This document shows positions 27,761 through 55,218 of a stretch of 64,000 bases of DNA, piece by piece. The stretch covers positions 1,054,001-1,118,000 of the forward strand of contig JACGCM010000004.1 in assembly GCA_014058105.1 (NCBI GenBank). Reading direction: 5' to 3'. Position numbers and translations under genes: made by a program. The stretch is from Kingdonia uniflora. Lineage: Eukaryota; Streptophyta; Magnoliopsida; Ranunculales; Circaeasteraceae. The notes beneath the pieces were generated by a model, which saw only the letters and a program-made list of their open reading frames with translations, was not told the origin of the DNA and ran no database searches. How positions within the stretch are numbered: position 1 is the stretch's first letter; each line of letters begins with the position of its first letter.

Positions 27761-27789
27761 TCATCTAGGTGATCAATTTTTGGTAATTG

Positions 27790-34280: not shown

Positions 34281-34289
34281 TTGTAAGTT

Positions 34290-34370
34290 CAGAAATTATG
34301 AGAATAAATACTACCTTTTGTCATCTTTACAAAATCGATACTTTGACCAGCCTATTCCAAAATCGATACT
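34290..34370 (+). repeat. Left terminal inverted repeat of the large MULE
   Basis: Pairs with 51315-51395. Strong identity over the outer 47 bp, including AATAAATACTAC and TTTACAAAATC. A 25-bp word TAGTCTAATCTGCTACAGTA recurs in the subterminal region near 34450 and, in variant form, near 34623. Confidence 0.88.
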
Positions 34371-35197
34371 AAAATCAACAAATCGATAATTGTCTCACCT
34401 ACTACCCCCTAGCTGCCACCCTATTCTCTAACATTAAATGTTGATGGGTAGTCTAATCTGCTACAGTAATAAATTTACCAACTCCAACAGATTACTTAAC
34501 AAATGACAAAGCTATACCAAAACAATTACAACGATACACCTCTCAAATGACAAAGTTCTCGCATAACCAATGATAAATAATGTAGAAAAAAATAAGAAAC
34601 TATCCCACTCGAGTTGTTGAGTAGTATAATCTGCTACAGTAATAAGAGGAAAGATTTCCCCTTAAATACGCTACCAACCTTAAACAACAAAGCTGCTACA
34701 AAAATCTAAGCACGCTCTCCTTGATATACTGTTTATCTCCTTCATGTGCCAAGTCTTCCAACTATCGTTCTGTATTCGATAAAGTCCTCACACAGAGATC
34801 ATTGGGAGGAAAAGATCGTTGCTATTATATGTTATTCTTGTTGCCAAAGACCGTTGTTATCCTTCTCTCCGACTATTAAAATAATCGTTTTAGTAAATAT
34901 TATTTCTAACTCTGTATCCATCATCTTTAACTGTGTATCCACATCACAATTTGTCCCATTTATCTGAAGAAAAGATGTTATGCAAGATGATATAATTCGT
35001 ACATAATCATTTTTCTTCGACTTTTTAATCATTTGTCTTCTGTTACTACATCACTAGAATTGTTCATCGATATCATTTATTTCAGGATTCCTATCATTTG
35101 TTTGAGGGATTGCTGGAGTTCAGTTTTATATTATTTTTCTCATTTGTTTTTGGTACTTTATCACCGGAATTGTTTATTTATATCATTTGTTTCAGTG

Positions 35198-38100
35198 ATG
35201 AATGAAGTTCACCTTTATACCATTGTTCATTTTGGTGGGGATATCGTACGTCCAAAGATCGGATCAATCATTATTTATGTTGGAGGAAGTACAAAACTTA
35301 CCTCACTAAGAGCGCACTCGTCATACGAAGATTTCGTTATACTCCTTGAAAAAATAAGTAAAATTCGTCGTGCGGACTGTAACCTGTACAACTTCATTCA
35401 TGGTTGTGTATGCGCAATTTCATCAGTCCAGGACTTTACCGTAATGATCAATATGCATAAAACCAATCCGGGCACCCCCTTTCACATATGGATTGCTAAT
35501 GACCTCAGGGTACCTTCCCAGAACTCCCAAAACTTTATTTATGATTTCTGTTCTTCGGGTAAAGGGTTGTCCACCACCAAAGATACTAGTTTAGGTAGAG
35601 GCTTGCCCACCACCAAAACGAGGGGCCCTTTGCGGTATAACTCATTTCCTGATCGTGAACCTAAATACAGGGGTTACCCTAAAACAAACGGTAGAGGGCT
35701 TGATCCACGCAGGTTTAAACCTTTTTTGGATGATGAAAATGATTCTTTCGAAACTATTCGTACTAAAGTTCTTCCCTCAAATGAACCTAGTATTCCTCAA
35801 TCAAATGTTCATCTCTCAAATGAACCTGTGTTAACTAATGTTCATCAATCAAATGAACCTTTTCAAATTATCCCTACTAATGTTCCTCTCTCAAATGAAC
35901 CTTCTATTCCTCAATCAAGTATTCATCTCTCAAATGAACATGTGTTAACTAATGTTTCTCCTTTAAATGAACTTATGTTAACTAATGTTTCTTTTTCAAT
36001 TGAACCCGAACCTATCATTGGACAAACTGAAACTTCAGGTAAATTAGCAGAATTTGTCAATTGTGTGCTATGTTTTATCATTTCTTATTCAATTTTTATC
36101 ATGATAAGTAAAATATTTCTCATTTGTTCAGCTGAGTTTCGGTTTAAGCCATAGCCCAAACAGGTGAAAGATCTCATGGATTTTTGGTTCAAATCTGTTG
36201 CGTACACGGATGATCCCTATGACTTCAGTAAAAAGTTTAACATTGGTGATCTATATCGAGATAGGATTGAACTCAAAAATTACATAAGAGCTTATGCAGT
36301 TGTAAACAAGTTCAATCTCAAACATGCTCTGGGCAACGAATATAAAATCGTGGTACGTTGCAAATGTCATAAATGTTCTTGGAAGATTTATGCGACAAGG
36401 TTGGTCAGTTCTGCCATATTTAGAGTAAATACTTATTCCTCTGTGCATATTTGCATCCGAGTAGAAACTGAAGGTCGGAACGCGTATAAGGCATCGTCTA
36501 GTAGTGGGTTGCTTCTATAATCAAGCAAAAACTACGAAAAGACCTAAACTACAAACCTTCCAAAATTATTGATGATATGCAAGTTCATCACAATATTGAT
36601 GTAACATACAATCTCGTCTGGCATGTGAAAGAAAAAGCCCACGCTGAGGTATCATCACTTTATATGTTATTTGTTCTTCCATACAAGTCATTTGTACAAC
36701 ATTATTTATCACTTTTTCTCATATCATTTGGTCGACTCACTGTGCCATTTGTACTTGCCATACAAGTCATTTGTAAAACACTGTTTATCATTTATCTTCT
36801 CCACAATTTCATTTGATCTACGTAATTATTTTAAATAAGAGGTAGCTTTGAGCACGCATACCAACTACTTACGAGCTACTTTGCGAAAGTGAGGTTGGTT
36901 GACCCAGATTTTGTATTTGACATACAAACTACGAGTTGTAAGGATAAGAGATTCACAATGTGTTTTTGGTATTTTGGTCCCCCCCAAAAAACTTATAAAC
37001 TATTGAGACCAGTTGTTGTGATTGACGGAACTTTTTTAAAATAGAGATATCGTGGGACTCTACTAACAACCATCGTCATTGACCCAAGTAATCATATTTT
37101 TCCACTTGCGTTTTTGATAACAGACTTGGAGACGACCGAAAGTTGGACATACTTCCTGGAGATGTTTGGGTCTAATTTTCATGGTTATGACATTAGATTT
37201 GTCGTCATCTCTGACATGAACCCCAAAATTATTAATGTTGTACCCAAGGTGTTTCGATTTGCAATCCATACGTTTTGCGCCTTTTACATATCTAACAAAA
37301 TTAAAATTACCCTCGAAAGTACGAGGATCGCATTTAGGATAGCAGCAGAGGCCCTAACCAGCATTGATTTTGATAAACACATGAATGCTATTCGGAATAT
37401 AGATCCAGTGGGTCTCCAATACATACTTAGTATTCCCAAGGAAATATGGTATAATCTATACATTCCAATGAGTAGGTACGTTGTTACTCTTTATTGTTCA
37501 ACTTATCATTTGTTTTAAGAAAACTAGTCATTGTAACTCTATTTACATTCATATTTGTTATTTTTCCCCATTATTTTTTATATATTCTTTATTATTCCTT
37601 TTACAGTTGTATGATCCCAATTGTCATCTATTTATGCTCATTTGGCATTTGACTTATATGGTTTGTCATTTTTTCAGATACGGAGTCGCTTACGCAAATC
37701 ATGTCGAGAGTTGGAATAACGTTATTTTGAAAGTAAGAGATCTCCCTATCTATGTGTTTATTGAGGAATTGCGTAGAATCTGTTCGGAAATGTCCTACAC
37801 GTATAGGGAAGAAGCTGAGAAAAGTCTAGCTCGCTTAACGCCATGGGTTACGGATCACTGTGTGAGCAGAAAGTTTGTGGTGGATTCACTAACCTGCAGG
37901 GTTCGTACATCACGTCACTATTTTTAGATGACTAGTTATGGTTGAATCGATTCTGTAAATATTGAAGATGGTACTTGTTCTTGTCGTTGGTGGTAAACGA
38001 TGGGTATACCTTGCGAACACGGAGTACGCGCTCTGGGTCTTGTAAATGTTGATCCAACTACACGTGTCTCTGAGTACTTCACAAATAATACATACAAGGC

Positions 38101-38425
38101 TGTTTATGAACCTATATGGATTCCTATAAGAGGAATTGAGCAGTGAAATTTTTTAAAAACTGATCCACATGTTTGTGCTCCTATTCCAACAGTTCGAGCC
38201 GACCGTCTTCGCATGCAAAGAAAGGGAAGGGAAAAAATGCCCGGTCTTGTTACCAAACTAATATTTTGCAGTCGGTGTCGAAAAAATAGACACAATCGTC
38301 GTTCTTGTAAGTTTATGCCAATCCCATCCAACGATAATACATGTCCGACAATGGCACCGTCTTTTACGATGAGCACTGAGCCACCTGTCATCCCAAATGA
38401 AGATGTTGCAATCAACTTACATTGA
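35198..38425 (+). pseudogene. MURA-type MULE transposase
   Basis: ATG at 35198 follows a TTTCAG acceptor. The first coding exon (to 36038, AG/GTAAAT) has a PB1-like start (HLYTIVHFGGDIVRP) and a tandem-repeat linker. Exon 2 (from 36132) holds the MuDR DNA-binding domain (FNIGDLYRDRIELKNYIRAY and RCKCHKCSWKIYATR). The catalytic domain follows with RPVVVIDGTFLK (first Asp, about 37015), PSNHIFPLAFLITD and FVVISDMNPKI (second Asp, about 37210). After an intron ending TTTTTCAG near 37677 comes the C-terminal part with a SWIM zinc finger (CSCRWW...GIPCEHGVRAL, 37975-38030) and a zinc knuckle (CSRCRKNRHNRRSC, 38267-38310). Stops follow RFKP (36151), FLK (37042) and others, with a frameshift near 36495, so it is inactive. 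Confidence 0.88.
35760..36015 (+). repeat. Tandem peptide repeat in the transposase linker
   Basis: A unit of about 33-36 bp encodes variants of PSNEPSIPQSNVHL and LSNEPVLTNVHQ seven or so times in a row. It lies between the PB1-like start and the DNA-binding domain. Copies differ from each other, so the array is not newly formed. Confidence 0.8.
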
Positions 38426-38929
38426 TAATTTTGGGTACTCTATGTATTATTTGTTTGTATGATTTTTATTGTCAGTGTTGTAAAAAGTCATTATTTGTTT
38501 AATTGTATCTGTCATTTGTTTGCTTGTATGATCTCATTGTTTGCTTCTGAAGTGTCATTTGTGGATGAATACTTTCTCATTTGTTTGTTTCCATGATATC
38601 ATTGTTTTATTCGGAGCTGTCATTTGTTCACAAAGAATTTTCCATTTGTTCGTTTCTATTATATCATTGTGCGCCAAGAATTTTTCATTGTCTGTTGAAT
38701 TTTTATCTTCAGCTTTGTTAAGTTTATCATTAAACTTGTCCCCCCTATATCATCATTATTTTCTTACAGAACTGTGATTGTTTTATTTACCACATATCAA
38801 ACATAAACCACTACTTAACAGTAAAAAACAAATGAAATTGCACCGAACAAAACATCTTTTAATTCATACAAAGGCAAAGTACTAGTTACCGCAAAAAACG
38901 AATAAACAAAGCACCAAAGATTCAAATGT
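38426..38929. other. Spacer rich in TCATTTGTT words
   Basis: Non-coding spacer after the transposase. It contains about ten copies of CATTTGTT-type words in plus orientation and no recognisable gene. Confidence 0.6.
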
Positions 38930-39367
38930 TCACAACTCCTCCTGATTACGTTCAACACATTCCATATCGCGCTCCAAAGCCTGGATCTTTTGCTCGAGAC
39001 AACTAATCTTAGAAGCTTAGTCTTCCCACAGTTTCTTGTGCTCATCTCGGTCTAACTTTACAGCGTAAAATTGATCTTCCAAAAAGTGCATATGGAACTT
39101 GAACTCTTCATAACGCTGGTCTCTTTTTGCTATAGTTTGAGACAGTTCATCCTGGATATAATCGAACGCTTCTAATTTCTTCCTGAAGTCTTCGTAATGC
39201 TCTTTCAGCATTTGTGCCTTCTCACCGGAGACATCTTTCTCCATTAGACATAGTCTATTCAGTTTGTAGAGACGTTGGTCACGCTGATCTTTCTGCATCC
39301 CTACCGACTCAAACTAATCGTATGGAGTACTCGAAGAGACATGGCTAACTCGAGTGGAGTACGACAT
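38930..39367 (-). pseudogene. Coiled-coil protein, copy 1
   Basis: A 145-codon frame on the minus strand from ATG 39367 to TGA 38930. It begins MSYSTRVSHVSSSTPYD, then a TAG where copy 2 has Trp (DWFE). The rest is predicted coiled coil: LNRLCLMEKDVSGEKAQMLK, HYEDFRKKLEAFDYIQDELS, FLEDQFYAVKLDRDEHKKLW, then a second stop and ASKISCLEQKIQALERD. It is a paralogue of the gene at 39909-40343, in the same orientation. I do not know a named function; the protein looks like a small dimerising factor. Two stops make this copy defective. Confidence 0.65.
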
Positions 39368-39908
39368 TTTTCTTCAGAAGTTAAAAAGAGTTTATGGTTT
39401 AGGGTTTGAATAGTTGAAGAGTAGAGTAGCTTATTTGAACTTAAAACTTTTATAAGGGGAGTTGAATGCATTGGGAAGGGACGCGTGTCGGATTACTCGT
39501 TGTATAGGGTAAAAGTTATTATTACTTTGTTCGGCACTGTCGTTTCTTGTTGTACACGCAAGTAATATGAGTATTTAAACTGAGTTGTCTAATCAATTAT
39601 CATTACTTGTCACATCGATTTGTCATATGTTAAAGATAAGTTCGCATTTGTTTTTATGCTATATATCATTATATCTTTCCTGAACTGTCATTTTTTCACG
39701 ATAATGTATTATTTGTCTGTTCAAATGTTATCACCAGTTTTGCTAAGTTCAACATCTATCTACCATTGTTCATGGAGTCTTTATCATTGGTTTGGTTCCC
39801 TTATATCATTTACTTTTGATGGAACTTCCCTAGAGAAAAACCGAAATGAAGCAAAACAAATGTTCATACTAATAACAACAATAAAAAAACTAAAAGCAAC
39901 CTAAATGT

Positions 39909-40343
39909 TCACAACTTCTCACTTGAGTAATTCTGATCACGTTTCATAGCCATGATCTTCTGCTCGAGACAGCTAATTTTACAGGCTGACTCATCCCACA
40001 GTTTCTTGTACTCATCCTGGTCCAACTTTAGAGCGCAGAGCTGATCTTCCAAGAAGCGGATATGAAACTTAAATCCTTCAGAACGCTCTCTTTTCTTTTT
40101 TATAACTTTATCTAGTTCTTGATCCATTTCATCGAGCTCTCCTAATTTTTCCTTGAACTCTTCATAATTCTCTTTCAACAACTGTGCCTTTTCACTGGTG
40201 ATATCCTTCTCCATTAGGCAAATTCTATTCAACGTGAAGAGACGTTCGTCAGCCTGATCTTCCTCAATCCCTGCCGCCTCAAACCAATCTTGAGGGGTAC
40301 GGGATGAGGCACGGCTAAATTGAGTGGAATGGGAGTGCGATAT
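39909..40343 (-). CDS. Coiled-coil protein, copy 2 (start codon altered)
   Basis: Open for about 144 codons from 40343 to the TGA at 39909. The codon aligned to the ATG of copy 1 is ATA, so translation could only begin at a later Met such as 40232 or at a non-AUG codon. Residues include SRASSRTPQDWFEAAGIEED, LNRICLMEKDITSEKAQLLK, FKEKLGELDEMDQELDKVIK and FLEDQLCALKLDQDEYKKLW: a charged heptad-like coiled coil with no membrane segment. It is about 60-65 percent identical to copy 1 by eye. The gene lies head to head with the GRF zinc-finger gene, about 380 bp apart, so they could share a promoter region. Confidence 0.55.
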   Translation of the reverse strand: MSHSHSTQFSRASSRTPQDWFEAAGIEEDQADERLFTLNRICLMEKDITSEKAQLLKENYEEFKEKLGELDEMDQELDKVIKKKRERSEGFKFHIRFLEDQLCALKLDQDEYKKLWDESACKISCLEQKIMAMKRDQNYSSEKL

Positions 40344-40722
40344 ATCTTGAGAAGTTTTAAAGAGTGTAGGATTAGAGCTTTAGTTTAGGATTTTTTTTAT
40401 ACTTGGTTGAATTAGGACTTTGAATCACGTGTGGCAGGGTTTAGGGCTTAGTATTTAGAGTGGCAGGAACCATGTAGATGTTTTGGTTGGATAACTTGTT
40501 GTAAACGTAATCAAAGTTGACTTTAAGAATGACTTGTCACATCGTCTGTAAAGGCAAAAATCTATTGGCTTTACAGTGGGGGATATAGCATTTGTTGTGA
40601 CCAAGGGTATCATCATAATGTGTTAATTTTCATTTCTTTATAAACAGCTTGTCATAACCTTATACTACATAACCTGTATACTTGCTTCCAGTTCTCAAGC
40701 ATTACATACTTCCCTACCAACG

Positions 40723-41160
40723 ATGCATTCCCTTATTTGCTGGTGCGGTGAAAATTGTGATCTTCGTCTCTCACGCACAAGCCTCAACCCTAACCGTTGG
40801 TTCTGTCAATGCGCTCATAAAATTTGTAGGTGTGGTTTATGGGCGTGGGTAGATGAGGTAAAAAAGTGTGATTGTGGTCTCATTTACAGAGTCTCTAAAC
40901 TGCTCGGTAAGAGATTTTACCATTGCTCACAATATCATTGTCAGTTCAAAACTTGGTTTCGAGAATCCTCTATGCCCGATGATTCTAAAAGGCCACAATC
41001 GTCAACGGCAGAAGATATCACAAATTCTGGCCAAGGGAGTAATCAGATCCTCGACACTATTACATCTGAAACTTACACTCAATTAAGGATCTCGGAGGTC
41101 AGAACGGAGATGCTGCAATATTTTTGGCCCAAGTTAAAATCTCTAGATCTTAACAAGTAG
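40723..41160 (+). CDS. GRF-type zinc finger protein, intact 145 residues
   Basis: ATG at 40723 to TAG at 41160 without a stop. Two GRF-like units are visible: ICWCGENCDLRLSRTSLNPN followed by RWFCQCAHKICRCGLWAWVD, then CDCGLIYRVSKLLGKRFYHC followed by FKTWF. The Cys pattern and the RT...NP.R.F/W..C and W residues fit GRF fingers, which bind single-stranded nucleic acid in some DNA-repair proteins. Plants have many small GRF proteins of unknown role (the At4g04775-like group). The C-terminal third is Ser/Thr-rich and ends in a short helix-prone segment. It is the best preserved gene in the MULE. The family call is firm; its role in transposition is inference. Confidence 0.8.
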   Translation: MHSLICWCGENCDLRLSRTSLNPNRWFCQCAHKICRCGLWAWVDEVKKCDCGLIYRVSKLLGKRFYHCSQYHCQFKTWFRESSMPDDSKRPQSSTAEDITNSGQGSNQILDTITSETYTQLRISEVRTEMLQYFWPKLKSLDLNK

Positions 41161-41584
41161 AGAAATATGTAAGAGTGAAATGTAATATTCATTATCCTTA
41201 TTGACGTTAATTTTTGGCATTAGAATGTTAAACTCTTAAGGATCAAATGATAAATCATATATAGCAAATGACAAAATTTCAATAATACCATGCAATTTTT
41301 GGATTTTAAATGACAAAAACCACAAAACAAATGATATATCGCTCACTTTTGGATGACATATAGTTTATTAAATAACAAATATATTTTCAATGTTTTTTCA
41401 TTTCCAATGAGTTTCGTCAGCATTTAATACTACTGTGTTTGAATTCATTCTGACATTGGGATTTGGAACTCAGCATTAAATACTGCTGTGGTTTGCAGTG
41501 CTATGGTATTAATACTGATGTGGTTTATTTGGCAAGTACCTCTTTATTCCTTATTTAATCTTGTGTATCTACTCTGTAAAGAAG

Positions 41585-41761
41585 ATGGTGTCCACCAGAC
41601 GCCAAACGTACAAGTCTAGGGTTCTTGCCAGGATACAAGAGCTAGGACTTAGATACTTTGAGACCCAGTCCCTTGAGCTTCCTACTTCCATTCTAGTGCG
41701 TCCTACCATCCATGGGATGACGTATGAACAGATGAAAGAGGCGGACGACGATTACTATTAA
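41585..41761 (+). CDS. Small basic-to-acidic ORF of unknown function
   Basis: A 58-codon frame starting MVSTRRQTYKSRVLARIQEL and ending EQMKEADDDYY, then TAA. It lies about 420 bp downstream of the GRF gene on the same strand. A possible further exon follows a TTGAGTAG acceptor near 41895 and encodes a Gly-rich and Pro-rich tail (RIRGRDSGGGEGYGGGDGGG, then PPPPPPSA) ending at about 41999. I do not recognise it. Confidence 0.35.
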   Translation: MVSTRRQTYKSRVLARIQELGLRYFETQSLELPTSILVRPTIHGMTYEQMKEADDDYY

Positions 41762-42499
41762 ATGCAATGCTTTTACTATATGGTGACGTCGGAGTAGGGG
41801 ATGAGAATTGGTCATCGTCTTCTGGCAGAGGATGCTGTAATAACGATCGATAAAGCGGTTGGTATACGTTTGTTGATGTCTTGTTGTTATCTTGAGTAGG
41901 ATCAGAGGAAGAGATAGTGGTGGTGGTGAGGGTTACGGAGGAGGAGACGGTGGTGGTGGTAGAGGAGACCGGCCACCACCACCACCTCCGAGTGCATAAA
42001 CTGATGTAATGTAATGTAAATTAAAAGTTAAAAGTAAATTGATGTAATGTAAATTAAAAGTTGTACAATATTTGAGCTAATGAATATTTTTTTTGTGCCT
42101 AATGAGTTCTGGGAAGGAAGGTACCTTAAGTTATAAACAAGTAATATCATTCATTTATATAATCTTTTTCATTTGTTATATCTTCTTTGTCATTCGTATA
42201 GTGCAGAATTGTTTGAATGACTAGTCTGTATAGTTGGATTATTATTAATTTTTCACTTCTTATGTATGATTTGGCATTTGTTATTATCGATTTGTCATTT
42301 GTTTCATATGATATGACATTTATTATCCTCGATTTGTCATTTGTAATATATGATTTGGCATTTTGTGATCAGAGATTATGGCTAAGTGTCTGGAGTAGTT
42401 ACTTGGGGAAGAGTGGAAGAGACGCATCGATTGACGTTTGTCAGTTTGAAAACTTAAAAATTTGTATCACCAAGTCTTAATACTCCGACCCCTCCATCT

Positions 42500-42535
42500 T
42501 CCTCCATCATTTCTCTCTCTCTCTCTCTCTCTCTC
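42500..42535. repeat. CT microsatellite
   Basis: A run of about twelve CT dinucleotides in the unmatched part of the palindrome's left arm. Confidence 0.85.
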
Positions 42536-42594
42536 AAGTCTCAGGACTCTCAACAATGTCGATTTTCCTTTAATTAACTCCCCCAATAACGCAC

Positions 42595-42855
42595 TATAGT
42601 GATAATGATGAGGGGGAGCAACAAACTGACTATATTTTAGACGAATGTCCCGAAGAGGACTTCGACGTCGAGTAAGACTGGGAGTTGTTAGAGGGTGGTG
42701 GTGGTGATGATGATGAGGAAGATGATGATGAGGAAGATGATGATGGCGATGGTGATGATAATGGTGGTGATGATGATGATGATGATGACGGTGATGATGC
42801 GGATGATGAAGATGATGAACCTCCTCCTTAGAAGAAGGGGAGGAGGTTGTATTAG
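42595..42855 (+). pseudogene. Acidic Asp/Gly-rich low-complexity ORF fragment
   Basis: A plus-strand frame encodes EGEQQTDYILDECPEEDFDV, a TAA stop, then a run of Asp, Glu and Gly from GAT/GGT trinucleotide repeats, ending PPP and TAG. It could be the last exon of an acidic nuclear protein whose repeats have expanded. Without upstream exons this is uncertain. Confidence 0.35.
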
Positions 42856-45343
42856 GTTATTTTAGTTTTGGCTTTTTGGAGGGAAATTGGTTGGGAAGAA
42901 GCCTTGAAACATACATTTATTGGGGGGTTTTTAAAGGTTTTTATGATGATAAATGTTAATGAATAATAGTCTTGAATGTTAAATGTATAGTTTTAAATCT
43001 CTTGAATGCTGAATGTTGAATCTTTTCGTGGTCATTATTTCGGGTCAAAAAACTAATTAACCTTTAATCAGAGATTTGTCATTTCTTATTTATGATTTGT
43101 CATTTGTTATATGTGATTTGGCATTTGTTAGGATATTTGTCATTTGTTATATATAATTTGGCATTTGTTATCTCTGATATATCATTCGTTATATATTATT
43201 TGTTTTTTAGATTTGCTATTTGTTATAAATGATTTGGCATTTGTTATAAAGAATTTGTTCATTTGTTGATTATGATTTATTATTTAGTATCCATGATTTG
43301 TCATTTGTAAGAGCATCTCTAACCGCATGGTATGTTACACTTTTCACATAATTATGCAAAAAATACTACTTGGGGAGTGGTATGTTCATACTACTTTTGT
43401 AGCTCCCCTACAAATATTTCTTCTCTTCCTTTCTTTTTTATCTCTAATAAAGGAACATTGTGGGTCCCAATTTTGAATAAAAATCTTCTTTCTCTCACAT
43501 ATAAATTTGGCGATAAATTCGTTATTAATAATTTATCATTTGTTGGCCTATATTTATCATTTGTTACCAATAATTTGTCATTTGTTAACTATTTATGGTA
43601 TATTTGGTTCTTTGAACAATTGCCTTGTGTTTGTATGATAGTAGTCTTCATTTGAACTGAAAAAAATTAGGTATCAATAATTTGTCATTTGTTCACCATA
43701 ATTTGTCATTTGTTAGCCATTATTTGTCATTTGTTAACCATCTATGGTCTATTTGGTTATTTGAACATTTGAATTGTGTTTTTATGATAGTAGTCTTCAT
43801 TTGAACAAAAAAAAAATAGGTATCAATAATTTATCATTTGTTGGCTTTGATTTGTCATTTGTTAGCCATGATTTGTTATTTGTTAACCATTTATGGTCTA
43901 TTTGGTTATTTGAACATTTGTATTGTGTTTGCATGATGGTAGTCTTCATTTGAACTCAAAAAAATTAGGTATCAATAATTTTCCATTTGTTAGCCATGAT
44001 TTGTCATTTGTTAACCATCTATGGTCTATTTGGTTCTTTGGACATTTGTATTGTGTTATTTGAACATTTGGTTCTTTGAATAATACAAATGACAAATAAT
44101 GGCTAACAAATGACAAATCAATGCCAATAAATGACAAATTATTGATAACCAATTTTTTTAAAGTACACATGCTGTCCACTAACAAATGAACACAATACAA
44201 ATGTTCAAAGAACCATATAGACCATAGATGGTGAACAAATGACAAATTATTGGTAATAAATGACAAATATAGGCCAACAAATGATAAATTATTGATACCT
44301 AATTTTTTTGAGTTCAAATAAAGACTACTATCATTCAAACACAATACAAATGTTTAAAGAACCAAATAGACTATAGATGGTTAACAAATGACAAATCATG
44401 GGTAATAAATGACAAATAATGGTGAACAAATGACAAAGTATTGATACCTATTTTTTTTTAGTTCAAATAAAGACTACTATCATACAAGCACAATATAAAT
44501 GTTCAAAGAACCAAATTGACCATAGATGGTGAACAAATGATAAATTATTGGTAACAAATAACAAATCAAGACCAACAAATGATAAATTATTGATACCTAA
44601 TTTTTTTGAGTTCAAATGAAGACTACTATCATGCAAACACAATACAATTGTTCAAAGAACCAAATAGACCATAGATAGTTAATAAATGACAAATTATTGG
44701 TAACAAATGACAAATATAGGCCAACAAATGACAAATCATTGGGACCCACGATGTTCCTTTATTAGAGAGAAAAAAGAAAGGGAGAGAGGAAATATTTTTT
44801 GGGGAGCCACAAAAGTAGTATGAATATACCACTCTCCAAGTAGGGTTTTTTACATAATTATATGAAAAGTGTAACATACCATGTTGTTAGAGATTCTCTT
44901 ACAAATGACAAATTATGGATAATAAATGACAAATGACAGTCGATAAATGAAGAATCTTGTATATTAAATGCCAAATCATTTATAGCAAATGACAAATCTA
45001 TAAAATAAATAATATATAACAAATGATATATCATAGATAACAAATGATAAATATCAGATAACCAATTCTAAATCATATATAACAAATGACAAATATACTA
45101 TAACAAATGCCAAATCACATATAAAAAATGACAAATCTATATTAACAAATGCCAAATCTTACATAAGAAATTAAAACTTAATAATAATCCAACTATACAG
45201 ACTAGCCATTCTAACAATTATGTACTATACGAATGACAAAAAAGATGTAACCAATGAGAAAGATTATATAATTGAATGATATTACTTGTTTATAACTTTA
45301 CAAAATTACAGAAATTATACATATTTCAACAGCAAAATGGATG

Positions 45344-48300
45344 TCAAAGTTTCAAAATCTCCTCCGGCCCAACTCCCAACCTTAATATGTCATATGCAAT
45401 TGTGTAACAACATTCATCACCGTCTATGAGATCTGGAAATTTCATCCCCCTTAAGAGATTATCCATAAAGACAAGCATATAGACCCCTCAGTTATTACCA
45501 ATTGGATGTACTGGACATTTCCCAAAATGAGTTGTCCATTTAAAGTTTAGACCATAATCTTTTACCTCTGAACCAGTAGGTGGACTACTGCGATCGGCAA
45601 AATCTCTCCATTTTAATATTTTCGGGATGATCGTTGATATCTGATCTTCAATAAGCTGGTGTCCAGGAGATAACTTTTTCCTCTTCTGTGCATTTGCAAT
45701 TTTTGAATCTACCATTAAATCGTAGATGCATATTTTTTTTCCTTAAAGGACACAACACAAATGACCCAGTGGCTGTCATTGATATTCCAGGGAATGAGTA
45801 ATAATTTTGAATTGACCACTTTTAAATCTCCTCGATGGATGCAATTAGAAAATGTACGATCCTATTGCATAAATATAATTTGTTCCCAAATTGATTTCTT
45901 CTTCAGTTCCACACCTTCTGGAGATGACATATTACGAGTCCAAACATTGAAAGCTCTGCCAATATATTGACAGGCAAAGATATCTGCCAGTACAATCCTT
46001 TCTTTATCTAGGCGGGTACGATATTGTGTGTCAAAATATTGAATAAGGGCTTTAATGTACACATCAATGACCTGAACTGGAAAATAAAATGACAAATTAG
46101 ATAACAAAAATGATAAAGTTTAATATTATAAATGACAACAAAGGCAAAACTAATGATAAAGTACAAACGAATTAATGACAGAAAATGTGAAAACTAATGG
46201 TAGAGACTCTTGTATAAATGACAGAGAAAAATAAATAAATGATATAAATACCTCATTGTCCAACCATTGATTTAGATATAAAGTGTAGAGAGCGTTAAGA
46301 CAAACAGTTTCTTCACATATCCTCATATAGGTACTCCTGTTGTTCTTCTTAGCTTCAGGAGATAATTCATCTTTCCTTAGTGACCAGACTTGGTCCACCT
46401 AGTTTTTCTCATCTTGGGAGATGGGTCTGTGAATAAAAGATTCTAATAATACTCCTGGAAGAAGCTGGTCAAGGTGAGCATGCAATTGGTTCATTTGACA
46501 AGCCATTTTGATGGTTTTTTCATTATTTTCTTCCTCAGTGAGTGCATGCCTCTTCTTTAAGGTACCATCCACTTCTGACTCCATTAAAATAAGTTGGAAC
46601 GGATATGTCGAAATAAGAAAATAAAATGTAAATGTGCTTATTACATTAGATTGAGTAATAAACCAGTTGCTTGGTTTAAAAGTAGTTCATACATTGGTCT
46701 GGTCAGCAACCATTTCTTTTATTACTTGTTCAGGGTCTGGTTTATTCTGTAAATTTCCATTATCATCATCTTTGCCTTCAACCACTTCCTCTTTATTCTG
46801 TTCCACTTCTTCTTTACTCTCTTTACTCTGTAAATAAATAGATTACAAATGATAAGAGTGATACAAGATATAGGAAAATAAATAGAAGAAAATGAGAAGT
46901 TACCAACAAACAAATGATAAGTTATTTGACTAGCTTCACCAACATCTTTCTCCTGGTGGTAGATTACTACTTCAGTTTGTGTAACCTCTATAGTCTGTTT
47001 CTCGACAGATACAACACTAGCCTGTAAATAAACAAACTACAAATGATAAGAGTGATACAAGATATGGTAAAACAAAAGAAGAAAATGAGAAGTCAACAGC
47101 AAACAAATGATAAGTTACCTGATAAGCTTCACCAACAACTTCATCCTGGTTGAAGAATACTATTTCATTTTTTGCTATCTCTGTAACCACCATAGTCTGT
47201 ACAACATAGGTTAAAGAAGAAACAAATTAAAAAAATGGTATGGATAGGTCAATACATAACTTGATGTTATGAATCCTCTACTTCAGAAAATACCTCATCT
47301 TTTTTTTTTCATTATAATACACCACTACAATTGGTGGTTCTGAATCTTATTCTTCAGCAACTTGAGGTTGCTCTTCTTTAGATTTTTTCTCCTCACCATC
47401 TTTTTGAACATCATCAACTTTCTCATCACCATTATTCGATTCTTCCATCTATACAATAAGATATACATACTACGAATGGTAAAATTAAATGAACAAATAA
47501 CAGGGTAGCAACAAATATGATAAATAGCCCAAAACAAATGTGAGATAAATAAATAACTCTTGAACTTTCTCTCCTTCAGCAAGTTGAGGTTGCTTTTCTT
47601 CAGATTTAACATTCTCCTCTACATCTTTCTTATCATCATTATCTTTTTCGTCACTCTTTTTCCACTTTACATACAACAAATAAAATGACAAAAGACATCA
47701 GAAGAAATGAAAGTTCTAGAAAAGAGAATAACAAAGACATCCTCACAAATGCCAAAATATCCTGAACAAATGACAAACTTCTAAATGAAATGACAAAGTT
47801 AATAAAGTAAATGCAAATTGTTTAAAAAACAAATGTCAAATAAAACCATATAAATAATAAGAAGTAACAAACGGATGATACCTCTAGAAGATCACCACCA
47901 TATTCAGACTATATCGCATTAAAATTTACTTCCCTCCCAACTTCAACATCATCATTTACCATTAAATCGTTTACCACCTACAATCCCTCTCCAGGCGCAA
48001 CTTGCTAAAGTAAATTTTTGGTAGTTGATTAAATATTCTCAAGTTCAGGGAATGTCACCCGTCTCTTCCTTGACAATCTATTAGCCAAGCCCTTCCTGGG
48101 GATTTTGGGTATTAAGGCTTTCAATTTGATCAGTGGGACATGATCAAATTGATCATCAGTAAAAGCTTCTTTCTTCAAGCCTTCAACCTTTTTCTTCTTG
48201 CTGGTCACATCAGTTTCTTCAGCCTTCTTCTGCCATTCTCCCTTACCTTTTTTTGGTTCTCGACTCCGCCTTCTTCCTTTTCTCATCTTCTTTCTTATTG

Positions 48301-49919
48301 CCTCATTCCCGCTTGTGTTTCGTGGTTTTCTTAGGAGTAGAGAACTTGTACTGCCCAAGGAGTGGAGTATCTTCCACAGTAAACATCAAAATTTGTTCCA
48401 ACATTTTACCATGATTATACAACATTTTGTCATGCTCCTCCAACTGGGAGCATACCCTAACTACTACAGCTCCGATCTCAGTGGTAGAAGAACTGCTACC
48501 TATTACAGGTGCACCGACTACAGGTGGTTTGATTGCTGGTGCAGCGCCGATTACAAGAGCTTTGATTTGATTTCTCTGAAATATTCAAACAGATGACGAT
48601 GACAAAGGGTAACTTAGAAATGACAGGAAATACTAACAATGATAATTGGCATACAACAAATGACAAAAAAAGACTTCATAATGACTAAAAAATTAAACAA
48701 ATGTCAAGAAGAGTATACAAAATGCAAAAACTGAACAAATAAAATGATAGGAAACATAAATTAAATGACAAAGAAGCAAAAAAATGAATCAAAATCATAC
48801 AAAGAATGGAAGATTACCATGACCTTTTGTACAAGATCTTGCTGCATGTTAGTCTCAGGGGGCTTTATAGCTATTACCAGCAAATTGGGGTTAACAAAAA
48901 ACTTTTTAAACGTCACAATTAGGCGAAGTTTAAAGGATGTCATCCTCCATCCCTGTAGCTTAGGGAACAAATGTATAGATTCCTCAATTCATGGAAACTA
49001 CAGGCTGAGAATAGAAAGGAAAGTCCATATTATCAATACCCAGGTACATCTATGGAGTGATAAAGCTTTATCCGATTTTTTATCAGGGGCCGATCAATAT
49101 TTGGCAAACTCCATTATTTGTCTCCACAAGAAATTATAGACTTGCTTACCCTAAGGGAATCTGTTGAACTATTGTAGATCACCTACCAGATCAAGATACT
49201 TCACCCAAATGTTTCTCCCCTTGATCGGGAAGAGAAATGATAGTATATTTTTTAACAAATTTAATTGAAGAACATCTTCTACAAAGCGAAATAACACAAT
49301 GTAATTATAAGAATCTTAGAATATAATGAGCCAAAAATGGTAAATACAATACAAATATTGGAGGGGTGAGAAATGCAATGAAGAATAATGATAAAGAATA
49401 CAACACAAATGACAAATTAGAGGCTTACTATGATGTCTTTCCAATTTTGCCTGTTTTAAAGCATCATCAATTTCCTTCAGCCCATATGTATTCTTCTTCT
49501 TGAGGAATTGCCTCACTCTAAAAATTTTCATATGCTCAGAATCAACAAATAAGAACTCGTTTGCAATAGGCGAGACACGTAGCCCCAAATTCAGGCAAAC
49601 ATGAATAAGCTTTATCTGAATTATCGTCTCCCCAAATTGGAACTTCATATCACCCAGATGATGGTCGAATATTTTCACAACCAACGTCGACATTGGCGCT
49701 ATTGGATCAATCAGCAGTAATGGTACAAAGTAGGTGGCACGAAGAGTACCCTTCTCCTTTTCAGGCAGAACTGCAAACATTTTGTAAAGTCCCAAACCTG
49801 TACACCAAGAGGTATAATTTTTAACATTTGAGGTGCCCTTCTTGGCTCTACCCTCCTGTGTTTGGTTCTCCTCATCAACTTATTCATTTATTTCTTTATC
49901 AGACTTCATTGTGGAAGAA
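45344..49919 (-). pseudogene. Ulp1-type (C48) cysteine protease gene carried by the MULE
   Basis: A multi-exon gene on the minus strand. The first exon from ATG 49919 encodes LYKMFAVLPEKEKGTLRATY, FVPLLLIDPIAPMSTLVVKI and GETIIQIKLIHVCLNLGLRV, the N-terminal pattern of plant MULE-carried ULP proteins. Middle exons include a basic part (RSREPKKGKGEWQKKAEE, near 48250) and duplicated acidic exons (46800-47650). The catalytic domain is at the end: IPWNINDSHWVICVVSFKEK with the active-site His (about 45800), IYDLMVD with the Asp (about 45725), and PIGNN followed by a TGA (45490-45488) where the catalytic Cys should be, then GVYMLVFMDNLLRGMKFPDL to the stop at 45344. Active relatives cleave SUMO-like modifiers. 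Another stop lies after the ninth codon, so this copy is dead. Confidence 0.8.
46829..47215. repeat. Tandem exon-intron duplication in the Ulp1-like gene
   Basis: The block starting TGTAAATAAAT at 46829 recurs at 47023, an offset of about 194 bp. The copies share AAATGATAAGAGTGATACAA, AGAAGAAAATGAGAAGT and a TAGCTTCACCAACA/AAGCTTCACCAACA exon. A second, looser pair lies at about 47340-47420 and 47575-47655 (Lys/Glu-rich exon). Each unit contains an intron and a short acidic exon. Confidence 0.75.
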
Positions 49920-49933
49920 GAAGAAAAAACAAA

Positions 49934-51255
49934 CTTTGATCAAACACCTAGTAGGCAGTAGTTACACATATGATTTGCCACTTATATAGCACTAAAATTA
50001 CACAAACAGATTGATGATTTGCCAATAATTTTTTAGAAAAAGATTTGTGCGACTAGGATGGATTTTAAGCTCATCAATCACACACACAATTTGTAAAAAT
50101 GGGATGATTTTTCCTGTCTTTACAGTGGTCGTGCAGGAAGAAAGTGTTTGAGGAATAGGAATGGTTTTTGGTGCCAAAAGCTAAACGAACTCGTGTGAAT
50201 TACATTCTTTAGCTAACCCTAGAGAACAGTAAACAAATGCCAAATAATATAACTGATGGTGACAAAGTCTGCATGATCCAATATAACTGATGCTTAAACG
50301 CATAAGAAATTTGTTTCAGTAAATGACAATGATTACATGTAATGGCGACAGGGTCTGCTTTACACGTCTCGAAATAGTAAGGACACGTGTAGATTGAGGA
50401 ACGATTAAAATTGGACACGTGGTGTGATAATAATATTTTTAAATGATTTAAAGTTTTTTAGTATTAATTACGAAGTGACATTCAAACATAGTGGATCCCA
50501 CGGCCTTACCTGTTGCCTTACCTATGGAGCCCATGGCCTATAAACCTACTTTAATATTCAAGCAGTTGATATTTTTGGAAAAAATGACAAAAATGTATAA
50601 AACAAATGGCAAAGAAGACTGAAGAAATGGGAAAGTTACATAACAAATATGATAACAGTCTGTTAAAAATTACATAGACGTCTAAAAAAATACCAGAGTT
50701 GAACTAAATAAATAACATATTTTTGTTTGCCGCAGTCGCGTAGACAATTTGCCATCATTTGTTCCACGAGTTGAGTATAGTAGAGTACCATCTACAACAG
50801 TTACGAGTACCATCATTTCCTCAATGCCGAAGGTGTAGTGTACCAGTCTTCAATCAAACACTTAGTAGGCAGCAGTCATACAGATGGTTTGTGATTAATA
50901 ATCAGGATGGTTTTGGCGGTTGAGTAAGAAGAAGAAACTGTACGATGAATCGGGATAGCTTTTGTCTCCAAAAGCCAGGCGAACTCTTGTGAACCGCAGG
51001 TGATACCTAACCTTAAACGATGAGAAATAGTAGTAGAATTGGTGAAAGAGACTGTCTTTTAATAAATAATAAATATGTTCAAAGGTAAGACAAAATGTAG
51101 TACAACAAATGACAAGTAGGTCATAAGATGGTGACAATGTCAGCCTTCCTCGTACATGTAGCTTGATATAATACTTTTAAATGAGTTAAATAATTTTTAA
51201 CAATTTTTTATTAGGCCGGATGTGACATTTGTACTTGTAGATCCCAAAAGCAGGT
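49934..51255. repeat. Direct duplication upstream of the Ulp1-like gene
   Basis: The segment about 49934-50500 and the segment about 50847-51255 align in the same orientation. Shared blocks are ATCAAACAC(C/T)TAGTAGGCAG, a CCAAAAGC...CGAACTC block, and GAC(A)TT(C/T)...GTGGATCCC/GTAGATCCC near the ends. The offset is about 750-910 bp. The pair lies between the Ulp1 start codon and the right terminal repeat, where the promoter of that gene would be. Confidence 0.65.
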
Positions 51256-51314
51256 GGTTGTTTGCTGTAACATTGGAAGTTTAGTAGGGGCAAATATGGT
51301 TTTTCCTCCTGCCA

Positions 51315-51395
51315 TTACCAATTTTGGAATTTATTGCTCCCTGGGTCTGATTTTGTAATGATGGCAAAAAGTAGTATTTATTCTCATAATTTCCG
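51315..51395 (-). repeat. Right terminal inverted repeat of the large MULE
   Basis: Reverse complement matches 34290-34370. It is followed directly by the second copy of the 9-bp duplication TTGTAAGTT. Confidence 0.88.
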
Positions 51396-51404
51396 TTGTA
51401 AGTT

Positions 51405-53609: not shown

Positions 53610-55218
53610 CATGGTTTTAAACAGCCGTTATAACAACGGTAACGTTTTGAAGCCGTTCTGTTATACCTCATGTTCCGTTCTAAAATACAATACCCATTAT
53701 TTGTTGTTACAGACCGTTATTTTATGCTATAACGGCTGTTGTTACCGTTATAACAATACATTATTTTCAATGTTTTTCTTCACTTTTATACACCGGTATA
53801 ACACCGTTATATGATGTTATATGTCGTTATATGATTCTTGAGGAAAATCATTTCTTGTGATATGATATGAAATAACCATTAAGGTAAGGAAAATATTTCT
53901 TGTGATAAGTTATGAAATAACCACTAAGGAGATATGAAAAAAATTATTAAAGTGGTAGGCCACTGCCATTTTGATATGGAAATAAAAATTAATGTGTCAA
54001 ACACTAGCATAGTGATAAGAAATTTTTTTCATTTGACACAGATATGAAAGCTTCTTTTTAAGCCAGGTTGTATGGGGTCAGAAGCTGTATGCATAGTAGC
54101 TTAACATGGAAGTCCTGATGAGTTCTTAAATTATTACCATAAGATTTTGTCATTCATTTTTTAACTGAACTTTAAGCCATTTTCTTAGTTGATTGGTGGA
54201 ATTCATATGGAGTGGAGTTGCCTCAACATCGAAAGTTGGCTGTAAGAATTTTAAGTCAAACATGTACTTCGTCCGAATGTGAAAGGAACTGGAGTACCTT
54301 TGACAGGATCCACACAAAGATTATAAATCGATTACTTTCAAAGAAACTCAATGATCTTGTCTTTGTTCAATACAATGCTCGGCTTGAAAGAAGAAGGGAA
54401 GATAGGCGTCGACGTTATTGTGTAAACCCCATAAGTATGTCTGCTATTTTATTGGAAGATCCATTATGTGAATGGATTGCTAGAGGTGACGATGAGCCTT
54501 TATTGCAAACACATGAAGAATGGCCAGAAGAGCTTGAAAGAGTATTATCATTTGAAGGCCTGGAGGTCAATGAGCAAAAGAGGTACTCTACTTCTGTTAT
54601 TGACACAGATTTCCTAAAAAAATTGTCACAAGCACCTATGTATCAAACACAAATAAAGTCATTGCTTGAGGCGTATTTTGATTTCAATTTCAGCCAAATC
54701 AATCTCGAGCATGGCTAACCTTCGAACTACTCTGAATTTGATACCAATCAGTTCGACTTCGTTTACTAGTGAATGCAATGTCGCATTCCAGAATAATTAT
54801 TTTTCATTTGATGTTTATGAGATTTTTAATGTTCTGGTGGATGTTTATTTTGTCGGTGTGGTGTGGTATGTTGTTTTAATATTGTAATAAGTAATAACTT
54901 CAATAATAATAAGTACTTTGGTTTTTTCCTTTATTATCCTTTTAATTATAAAAAATAATGTCTATGACAGTGTTATAACGCTGTTATAATGGTGCTATTT
55001 GTAAAATAACATCTATAATGGTTGTTATAATTGAAACTTAATATGTATATATAGAGAAAACAAAAACACAACCGTTATTTTAATATAACACCGTTACAGG
55101 ACAAATAACGCCGTTATAACATTTTTTTCTTGTCATCTAGCCAAAAATAACGTAACACTGTTATAACGGTAACGGCCTTTGCCCGTTACACCGTTATAAC
55201 GTACCCTTTTAAACCTTG
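53610..55218 (+). mobile_element. hAT element, 1.6 kb, internally deleted
   Basis: The left end CATGGTTTTAAAC and the reverse complement of the right end CAAGGTTTAAAAG form short inverted repeats. The flanking 8-mers CTCTCAGC (53602-53609) and CTCTCAAC (55219-55226) match at seven of eight, as expected for an old hAT insertion. Both subterminal regions are crowded with CCGTTATAAC-type words, probable transposase binding sites. Only the last transposase exon remains. Confidence 0.85.
54189..54718 (+). pseudogene. hAT transposase C-terminal exon (dimerisation domain)
   Basis: The exon follows a TTTTCTTAG acceptor and is open to the TAA at 54718. It encodes DWWNSYGVELPQHRKLAVRI and LSQTCTSSECERNWSTFDRI, the signature of the hAT dimerisation region, then RLLSKKLNDLVFVQYNARLE and an acidic tail (WPEELERVLSFEGLEVNEQK). 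The exon itself has no stop, but the zinc-finger and catalytic exons are missing from the 1.6-kb element. It therefore cannot encode an active transposase. Confidence 0.85.

Follow-up and report, generated by a model that had tools for sequence, protein, structure and literature searches.

The maize element MuDR is a Mutator-like element (MULE) that combines a MURA-type transposase with 9-bp target duplications, as does the family from Kingdonia uniflora described here, and it differs from that family in its long terminal inverted repeats (TIRs) and in having no DUF1985-Ulp1 gene. Both are multi-gene MULEs, MuDR carrying mudrA and mudrB (PMC6446971). The anti-silencing transposon system used for comparison is that of Arabidopsis (PMC5735166), in which VANC21 binds a 9-bp motif arrayed in the introns, intergenic and terminal DNA of VANDAL21 (Hiun), with VANC containing a DUF1985 domain (PMC5735166). 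A reverse-oriented gene with an Ulp1 protease domain is described for the Kaonashi (KI) MULEs of Arabidopsis (PMC2528002, PMC13317346, PMC6117577), and Ulp1-bearing VANC genes are termed KIU and constitute one of the three genes of KIU elements (PMC13317346). The combination of TIRs with an Ulp1 domain is shared by the Kingdonia family and by melon TIR-MULEs with ULP domains, for which the consulted part of the description contains none of the GRF genes, coiled-coil genes and phased motif arrays of the Kingdonia family (PMC2528002).

In the window, i.e., the whole 64,000-nucleotide stretch of K. uniflora DNA that was analysed, a Mutator-like element spans positions 34290-51395 (17,106 bp), with a perfect 9-bp duplication at both flanks. 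It is a decayed member of a plant MULE family that is present in many copies and moves as one unit of 15-18 kb, and the full copies that were read have in common a transposase, a DUF1985-Ulp1 gene in reverse orientation, two coiled-coil-like paralogues and a gene for a GRF-like double zinc finger. The best explanation, to which we assign a probability of roughly 60%, combines this family structure with a KIU/VANC-type anti-silencing activity that the DUF1985-Ulp1 protein would exert via arrays of the motif TTTGTCATTT. The features of the window copy are as follows.

34281..34289, no strand: left target-site duplication TTGTAAGTT, present once at the empty site
34290..34336, plus strand: left terminal inverted repeat, 42/45 identities with the right end
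35203..38425, plus strand: MURA-type transposase gene (Pfam, translation), in 10/10 other copies; several exons, approximately 35203-36040, 36155-36520, 36870-37518 and 37690-38425, with limits set by eye
36053..37671, plus strand: seven sense-oriented TTTGTCATTT-like sites (one mismatch allowed) in the transposase introns
39017..39313, minus strand: CC1 coiled-coil-like gene, 98-aa open stretch flanked by stops
39909..40379, minus strand: CC2 coiled-coil-like gene, 156-aa open frame, paralogue of CC1
40723..41160, plus strand: GRF-like gene, 145 aa from ATG, intact frame, two tandem GRF-like zinc-finger patterns
41245..41379, no strand: cluster of motif sites in the interval from the GRF-like gene to the small ORF, oriented against the former
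41582..41761, plus strand: small ORF, 58 aa, conserved in position, of doubtful coding status
42128..45298, no strand: large imperfect palindrome, built of 149-bp and 21-bp units that contain TTTGTCATTT and are arrayed in inverted orientation
45290..46071, minus strand: Ulp1 (Peptidase_C48) exons, carrying a frameshift, a Q-to-H change and a stop in place of the catalytic C
46087..49416, minus strand: twelve sense-oriented TTTGTCATTT-like sites in the introns of the Ulp1 gene
46252..48580, minus strand: further exons of the same DUF1985-Ulp1 gene, repeat-rich variable middle region, exon limits uncertain
48800..49879, minus strand: DUF1985-like part of the same gene, exons 48800-49285 and 49421-49879
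51349..51395, minus strand: right terminal inverted repeat, from alignment to the left end and comparison of the ends across all copies
51396..51404, no strand: right target-site duplication TTGTAAGTT, present once at the empty site

An earlier note had proposed an element of about 17.1 kb with a perfect 9-bp duplication, all of whose genes had moved together, and this is borne out by an uninterrupted site at C369:1118601-1119400 (minus strand), a paralogous location on the same contig as the element, where TTGTAAGTT is single; the element flanks, joined at one TTGTAAGTT, align to it with 653/784 identities. The inverted-repeat ends that had been claimed are present as well, but not at the 80 bp given for them, as the termini are approximately 47 bp long, with 42 of 45 aligned bp identical in the window copy; in the copy C1642 the similarity extends over 80 bp at 82.5%. 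Ten other copies were fetched from the same genome for comparison. Nine of these are collinear with the window element from end to end, with lengths of 15.4-18.1 kb, and the tenth has the left half in common, which together with the empty site supports the movement of the genes between the termini as one unit. Both ends are found in nine of the ten, and a perfect 9-bp duplication of their own sequence in seven of those nine, the remaining two being C1151, with a duplication of 8/9 bases, and C272, with none. Chance boundaries are excluded by the empty site, the duplications of the other copies and the recurring gene content.

With respect to the latter, each of the nine left-half features occurs in all ten copies and each of the seven right-half features in nine. 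In the copy C1852 the single Ulp1 match among those listed on its contig sits 32.6 kb from the left end, so that an insertion into this copy is likely. At loci picked by the GRF gene alone (nine) or by the CC2 gene alone (nine) the partner gene was present in 18 of 18. Among the best 150 matches per query, 71 of the 72 GRF and CC2 pairs within 25 kb lie 688-798 bp apart on opposite strands, Ulp1 lies downstream of GRF on the opposite strand in 51 of 54 cases, and the three genes keep the same order and orientation genome-wide. The first-look candidates numbered 2247 for CC2 (a count that may include CC1 relatives), 1467 for the GRF-like gene and 1059 for Ulp1, the best 150 of each being scored; each of the three genes has more than 1000 such candidates in a genome of 1.0 Gb. 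The gene set thus recurs between the termini of other copies, contrary to the possibility allowed for in the earlier note that the GRF, coiled-coil or Ulp1 genes would never be found there or would belong to a nested element.

The MURA transposase named in that note is confirmed by its DBD_Tnp_Mut, MULE and SWIM domains (Pfam 7.3e-7, 3.4e-9 and, with stops read as X, 2e-6, all over the cut-off), next to which a CCHC-like knuckle is found by eye; its frame is broken in the window copy. The reverse-strand gene is predicted to be a DUF1985-like plus Ulp1 protease gene, as in the Ulp1-bearing VANC of the Kaonashi/KIU type. Peptidase_C48 is detected at 1e-10 (Pfam) in the single copy C1975, and DUF1985 in the single copy C1642 at 5.8e-7, with 30.0 bits against a gathering score of 35.1; a score just over it (35.3 bits) was reached only for exons joined from two copies, and the window DUF1985-like exon alone had no Pfam match. 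The middle region of the gene contains a 120-bp duplication (46873-46992 / 47066-47185). The Ulp1-like protease gene is a recurrent part of the cargo, as had been claimed, but the protease of the window copy itself is dead owing to the three lesions given above, whereas the residues H, D, Q and C are kept in some family members, e.g. C1642. The comparison with Kaonashi drawn in the earlier note proved apt, since a MULE with an Ulp1 protease gene oriented in reverse to the transposase is found in both, and it is strengthened by the DUF1985-like domain. KI-MULEs, however, are non-TIR by description, and the Kingdonia family, which has in addition a palindromic motif array and three further genes (one GRF-like, two coiled-coil-like), is not classed as a Kaonashi MULE because of its TIR (42 identities over 45 aligned bp).

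The remaining genes were assessed in the same way. The zinc finger that had been taken for an intact GRF has its 145-aa open frame, but it is termed GRF-like only because its PF06839 scores stay under the cut-off of 25.9 bits, the window ORF being unlisted by Pfam and three other copies giving 14.3 bits, 11.1 bits and no listing. Outside this genome, no relatives were found in the protein collection (four candidates, all with E above 0.001) or in the PDB (10 weak rows, E 0.59 or worse), and a single-sequence structure model of the window protein had a pLDDT of 33.9 and no usable fold. Pfam GRF genes do exist elsewhere in the genome (128 matches among the best 150 scored); by eye, none of them coincides with an element GRF-like place among the best 150 of each, and the nearest pair on shared contigs among the places listed is 11.9 kb apart (27 Pfam places checked). 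Both of the coiled-coil paralogues previously noted are there, with 56% amino acid and 0.75 nucleotide identity in the window copy, although CC1 has stops around its open stretch; their Pfam matches are all below cut-off, several of them to coiled-coil models, and the coiled coil is thus putative. The small ORF holds its position among the copies, but whether it codes is doubtful. Among the titles listed in our literature search, none was of a paper on MULEs with GRF-like and coiled-coil genes of this kind. Of the suggested larger accessory system, the recurrence of the added genes in the family stands, while a working system finds weak backing in the selection tests on these genes.

Features that go beyond the earlier note are a motif spaced at 21 bp and missing from exons, the palindrome, the lesions of the protease and the termini of about 47 bp. 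Exact copies of AAATGACAAA/TTTGTCATTT number 41 in the element, none of them in an exon, against 0.3 expected from shuffles and none in the 46.9 kb of window flanks; with at most one mismatch, TTTGTCATTT occurs 85 times in the element and 10 times in these flanks. None of the 36 motif sites outside the palindrome falls in an exon of the element (p 5e-11), and the 10 copies have 8 such sites in exons against 364 elsewhere. Among 571 same-strand successive spacings of up to 130 bp, 241 are exactly 21 bp, with 6 at 20 and 17 at 22, and motif pairs at 21 bp number 3750 genome-wide against 0 for the reversed pattern; in a column test on 666 of the 21-bp units, motif columns differed only modestly from spacer columns. 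The palindrome, of approximately 3 kb, is itself an inverted motif array, and array length varies between copies. A short family motif arrayed in non-coding DNA is thus present as in VANC-type systems, its genome-wide specificity having been checked in part. As in VANDAL21, the motif avoids exons and is arrayed in non-coding DNA, namely in introns, between genes and near the ends, its copy number varies between copies, and the gene of the factor has a repeat-rich variable region (PMC5735166). The Kingdonia family differs from the VANDAL21/VANC system in its motif (TTTGTCATTT at 21-bp spacing, as against YAGTATTAY), its Ulp1 domain and its TIRs.

How far the extra genes are under constraint bears on whether the family could be an ordinary TIR MULE, in which the GRF-like, coiled-coil-like and small ORFs are functionless captured passengers multiplied from a source copy. 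Relative to simulation, the N/S of shared substitutions was 0.80 for GRF (41/400 simulations) and 0.81 for CC2 (37/400), which is constraint that is weak at best beside the 0.83-1.15 of non-coding control frames; GRF transversions alone point the opposite way (2.38), the dN/dS of CC1 against CC2 was 1.12 (3 of 25 rows dropped beforehand), and few gap-free full-length copies have an open frame (7/23 for GRF, 2/18 for CC2). The CC1 rows of the N/S test include some CC2, and row mixing may remain in the CC1-CC2 comparison, in which nucleotide identity was 0.86 as against 0.75 between the window's own paralogues. On the other hand, for variants common to at least four copies N/S drops to 0.63 for GRF (88/2000) and 0.56 for CC2 (26/2000), three of the four control frames then being above 1 and one (GRF) at 0.69, and the majority sequences of both genes are free of stops. 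All genes show nearly neutral differences within the family, and the test lacks power because the transposase exons (0.57-1.32) and the Ulp1-domain exons (0.63-0.95), which are expected to be functional, are equally near-neutral; the values for two pieces from the middle of the Ulp1 gene were 1.44 and 1.02. The support for purifying selection on the extra genes thus appears weak and partly contradictory, and we regard the passenger explanation as somewhat unlikely.

The arrays, too, can be read otherwise, namely as transposase-binding sites, U-rich intron signals or slippage-prone tandem repeats and not as anti-silencing targets. In line with that, the TIR of most copies includes TTTTTG(C/T)CATCTTT, which is similar to TTTGTCATTT, and the intron motifs of 10 related copies are nearly all in T-rich sense (76 to 1 and 114 to 0), an orientation that could follow from the introns being T-rich; the motif sites at 34501-34545 and 41245-41370 are exceptions to the orientation rule. 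The arrays are, however, densest near the centre of the element and distant from its ends, and simple T-richness does not explain why the same 10-mer returns in 21-bp phase although the spacers between its copies differ, and we find these alternatives unlikely. A composite origin, with one independent element or several lying inside a smaller MULE, as might be thought from the resemblance of the palindrome to a foldback element, is extremely improbable, given that the same genes and motif array occur in the same order in copies at different insertion sites and that the empty site corresponds to one insertion; for the window copy, collinearity of the copies and the empty site rule out a nested origin. 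The VANC-type reading itself is countered by the single-copy DUF1985 score under the gathering score, the dead window protease, the near-neutral differences and the orientation exceptions. VANDALs are, moreover, usually described without TIRs or with degenerate ones, and the TIR kept by the present family counts against it.

In the anti-silencing model, the SWIM-type MURA transposase would move the element by its ~47-bp terminal repeats, generating the 9-bp target duplications, while the DUF1985-Ulp1 protein would serve as a KIU/VANC-type factor that recognizes the phased TTTGTCATTT arrays and removes DNA methylation in trans from members of the family, whose spread it would thereby have permitted. 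The GRF-like and coiled-coil-like proteins may assist this factor or the transposase. The anatomy of the element is that of a VANC anti-silencing system, and the shared extra genes and repeated motif suggest a home-made escape from plant gene silencing. In the VANDAL21/VANC system, the helical periodicity of the motif is reported to matter (Sasaki 2022, EMBO J).

Only a small number of transposon systems are known to undo host silencing actively. If the anti-silencing model is true, the DUF1985/Ulp1 type would be extended to an element that has TIRs and, in addition, zinc-finger-like and coiled-coil-like genes, and from the dense, phased motif the binding site of the factor can be clearly predicted; if it is wrong, the family still provides a well-bounded large MULE with an empty site. 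A further-reaching version, which we consider doubtful, would be a five-gene silencing-escape kit, in which the 10-bp motif at two helical turns (21 bp) is an address code in non-coding DNA, its polarity following transcription in the introns and the arms of the central palindrome, to be read by the DUF1985-Ulp1 factor with the element-specific GRF-like and coiled-coil proteins, and in which the array may have expanded into satellite DNA. The family is a case for asking whether target arrays grow into satellites; among the titles listed in our literature search, none concerned a satellite of this kind. Among the first motif-pair places listed genome-wide, some fall in satellite, and on the contig C3 motif pairs extend over approximately 40 kb, of which the 3 kb that were read are a tandem array.

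The unit at 34281-51404, described in the earlier note as a 17.1-kb Mutator-like element, carries MURA-type transposase domains together with inverted termini and a 9-bp duplication, and is by its transposase and duplication a Mutator-like element (MULE). The transposase matches the Pfam models DBD_Tnp_Mut (7.3e-7), MULE (3.4e-9) and SWIM (2e-6), with a CCHC-like knuckle recognized by eye, and the duplication is perfect, with TTGTAAGTT at both 34281-34289 and 51396-51404. The ends do match as inverted repeats (42/45 bp identical), but the 80-bp length ascribed to them is not seen in the window copy; in the copy on contig C1642 the terminal repeats are 82.5% alike over 80 bp. The window corresponds to G000:C369:1054001-1118000, and its MULE, DUF1985-like and plant mobile domains mark the DNA as that of a plant.

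For the empty site, the host genome was searched with 150 bp from each flank, fused at a single copy of the duplication, and then with 400-bp flanks. The shorter query returned seven places, namely both own flanks, four short partial matches and C369:1118829-1119127 (minus strand), which lies 829 bp past the window end and matches bases 1-294 of the fused flanks at 84%. With the 400-bp flanks, the alignment to this inverted paralogue of the insertion site (G000:C369:1118601-1119400) crosses the junction uninterrupted, with 653 of 784 positions identical and one TTGTAAGTT. A paralogous element-free target is thus present on the same contig, and the 17.1 kb arrived as a single insertion. Taken alone, the insertion as a unit with its gene set is near certain.

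A 120-bp left-end query gave 1630 first-look candidates in the 1.0-Gb genome, the best 40 scored being the window element and 39 others at 89-94%. Ten of the 39 were studied in full (2 x 10 kb each), nine of them picked for a nearby GRF match, so that the selection was not blind. Nine copies are collinear with the window element from end to end (15,396-18,133 bp), the 9-bp duplication being perfect in seven of these, retained at 8/9 bases in one and absent from one. Each of the nine left-half features tested is found in all ten copies and each of the seven right-half features in nine, where in five copies the best match to the coiled-coil-like gene CC1 was its paralogue CC2, CC1 itself being confirmed by a separate comparison. 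The recurrence of the same genes between matching termini, a check proposed in the earlier note, is thereby observed, nine of the ten copies holding the whole set, with GRF-like, coiled-coil and Ulp1 genes; the outcome named there as refuting, copies that never contain these genes, is not what is seen. The C1852 copy is common with the window only in its left half, up to the palindrome, and a later insertion into it is likely, because the sole Ulp1 match among those listed on its contig sits 32.6 kb from its left end. Seven left ends were examined as 3-kb loci (three belong to fully studied copies), and six of them retain roughly its initial 1.5 kb; at the seventh, C1709:410222, an internal deletion fuses element position ~1190 to ~6380, which brings the left end up against the GRF region, with most of the transposase and the coiled-coil genes gone at this locus, which makes the copy a likely non-autonomous derivative.

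At loci chosen by the GRF gene alone (nine) or CC2 alone (nine), the partner gene was found in 18 of 18 cases. The genome lists hold the best 150 of 1467 GRF, of 2247 CC2 and of 1059 Ulp1 candidates, and the pairings therefore describe top matches, not a census. They contain 72 GRF-CC2 pairs at most 25 kb apart, 71 of them on opposite strands at 688-798 bp, and 54 GRF-Ulp1 pairs, in 51 of which Ulp1 lies downstream of GRF and on the other strand; a GRF match from the best 150 of 1467 lies 6.1-8.1 kb inside 10 of the 40 left ends, always on the same strand.

As to the genes themselves, the proposed GRF zinc finger corresponds to a 145-aa gene with two tandem C-x-C-G...C patterns, but in the three other copies scanned the Pfam GRF matches stay under the cut-off (0.045 over two stretches, 0.43, and one not listed), and the gene is therefore named GRF-like only. 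Across the whole genome, 128 Pfam GRF-model matches occur among 150 scored, many of them in 125-126-aa open frames with identical scores; a different transposon family has probably spread these GRF genes. CC1 and CC2 are paralogues, as proposed (56% aa identity). The small ORF keeps its position but lacks a clear coding signal (ratio of nonsynonymous to synonymous variants, N/S, 1.04-1.05 for shared variants and 0.57 for variants in at least four copies, with 310/2000 simulations as low). The reverse-strand gene resembles DUF1985 in its N-terminal region, at 5.8e-7 and 30.0 bits in the single C1642 copy against a gathering score of 35.1, and at 35.3 bits in a two-copy join; its C-terminal domain is Peptidase_C48 (1e-10 in the single C1975 copy, 1.1e-15 in a two-copy join), and some copies retain H, D, Q and C of Ulp1 (C1642: IPWNINDSHW, IYDS, QPNGNDCG). 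The window copy is frameshifted, with Q replaced by H and the catalytic C by a stop.

Differences within the family look like post-insertion decay. Expressed relative to simulation, N/S of shared variants is 0.80 for GRF (41/400 simulations) and 0.81 for CC2 (37/400). The four transposase pieces span 0.57-1.32 and the four Ulp1-side pieces 0.63-0.95, the DUF1985 piece gives 0.88, two middle pieces of the Ulp1 gene give 1.44 and 1.02, and non-coding control frames run from 0.83 to 1.15. When only variants present in 4 or more of 27 copies are counted, the ratio is 0.63 in GRF (88/2000) and 0.56 in CC2 (26/2000), with contrary values in GRF transversions (2.38) and one GRF control frame (0.69). 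Between CC1 and CC2, dN/dS is 1.12 (control frames 0.80 and 1.20), and the frame is open in 7/23 (GRF) and 2/18 (CC2) gap-free full-length copies, out of 26 distinct other copies each. In this test of low power, constraint on the GRF-like and coiled-coil genes looks similar to that on the transposase and Ulp1.

The centre of the element and its non-coding DNA carry a 10-bp motif, AAATGACAAA, which is TTTGTCATTT on the other strand, and the densest stretch is the following:

42128-45298: palindrome, inverted arrays of a 149-bp unit (e.g. 43527-44018 versus 44249-44740, 89% complementary)

A motif array of 19-63 sites (one mismatch or none) occupies this position in each of ten aligned copies, that of the window among them, with a length that differs among copies and without the central 149-bp units in C1642; being at the same place in all ten and variable in length, the array belongs to the element and has no fixed size. 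The element has 41 exact motifs against 0.3 in dinucleotide shuffles (maximum 2 in 40), 13 of them outside the palindrome (0.2 expected), and the window flanks (46.9 kb) contain none. With at most one mismatch, the element has 85 sites and the window flanks 10. Of the 85, the palindrome holds 49 and the remaining non-coding DNA (7176 bp) 36, while the exons (6768 bp) hold 0 (p 5e-11); exon limits were drawn from translations, and the less certain exons in the middle of the Ulp1 gene counted as non-coding. Pooled over ten copies, the numbers are 388 in the palindrome, 364 in other non-coding DNA and 8 in exons, and the flanks of these copies (77 kb) hold 2 exact motifs and 31 with at most one mismatch.

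Same-strand neighbours (up to 130 bp, 11 copies) are spaced at 21 bp in 241 of 571 cases, at 20 bp in 6 and at 22 bp in 17, while the spacer sequences are unlike among introns, termini and palindrome. The intron sense strand reads TTTGTCATTT in 190 of 191 sites (transposase 76 versus 1, Ulp1 gene 114 versus 0; ten copies related by descent), and motif polarity follows transcription in 19/19 sites of the window introns (36053-49416). The motifs of the two palindrome arms point in opposite directions, each arm following the sense of the adjoining gene; the exceptions, outside introns, are the sites at 34501-34545 and 41245-41370. Since the element introns are T-rich, this polarity may be due in part to splicing. 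The 21-bp motif pair occurs 3750 times genome-wide and the reversed pattern 0 times; about half of the ~100 first-listed pair places fall on contig C3, within a stretch that resembles a satellite. There, motif pairs extend across ~40 kb (C3:7058-46710), all on one strand among the places listed, and the 3 kb examined (C3:13001-16000) form a satellite-like tandem array with a unit of ~138 bp and a higher period of 275 bp. Its similarity to the motif arrays in several copies of the element is ~70-73%, and it contains 26 exact motifs and 48 with at most one mismatch, in one orientation only.

The unit insertion, gene set and motif distribution observed here give the window element a build similar to that of VANC and KIU elements. 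From this match in anatomy we infer, with a probability of about 0.6, that the DUF1985-Ulp1 protein of the family would read TTTGTCATTT arrays and lift the silencing of its own family, the GRF-like and coiled-coil proteins being accessory. In VANC systems the helical periodicity of the motif reportedly matters, according to a 2022 paper. In PMC5735166 and PMC10398659, the YAGTATTAY arrays that VANC21, the VANDAL21 factor, binds lie in introns and in intergenic and terminal DNA; it binds exon probes much less and causes loss of DNA methylation, and DUF1985 is contained in VANC proteins. In a 2026 review (PMC13317346), the KIU genes of Kaonashi MULEs are Ulp1-bearing VANC genes, and the targets of such genes are the motifs of the group to which they belong. 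One defining feature of Kaonashi MULEs is, however, non-TIR termini, and the window element, which has TIRs, is therefore not filed under them; TIR-MULEs with ULP domains are described for melon in PMC2528002. The 9-bp duplications, SWIM and CCHC motifs and 46-174-bp TIRs that a MULE survey (PMC6446971) gives for the VANDAL clade are compatible with the window element. Among open-licence papers on MULEs, partly among top-ranked matches only, none was found to describe comparable GRF or coiled-coil genes. The element is real, a variant of a known build.

Elsewhere in the window, four further features were recorded:

1063-1659, reverse strand: F-box-associated beta-propeller-like ORF (0.00048, below cut-off)
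10890-11441, forward strand: ORF encoding a plant mobile domain (PMD, 5.7e-16), indicative of another transposon
24445-29160, reverse strand: ORFs resembling LTR-retrotransposon gag-pol by eye, two of which had no Pfam match at 0.01
54176-54718, forward strand: hAT-type dimerisation domain (4.2e-11)
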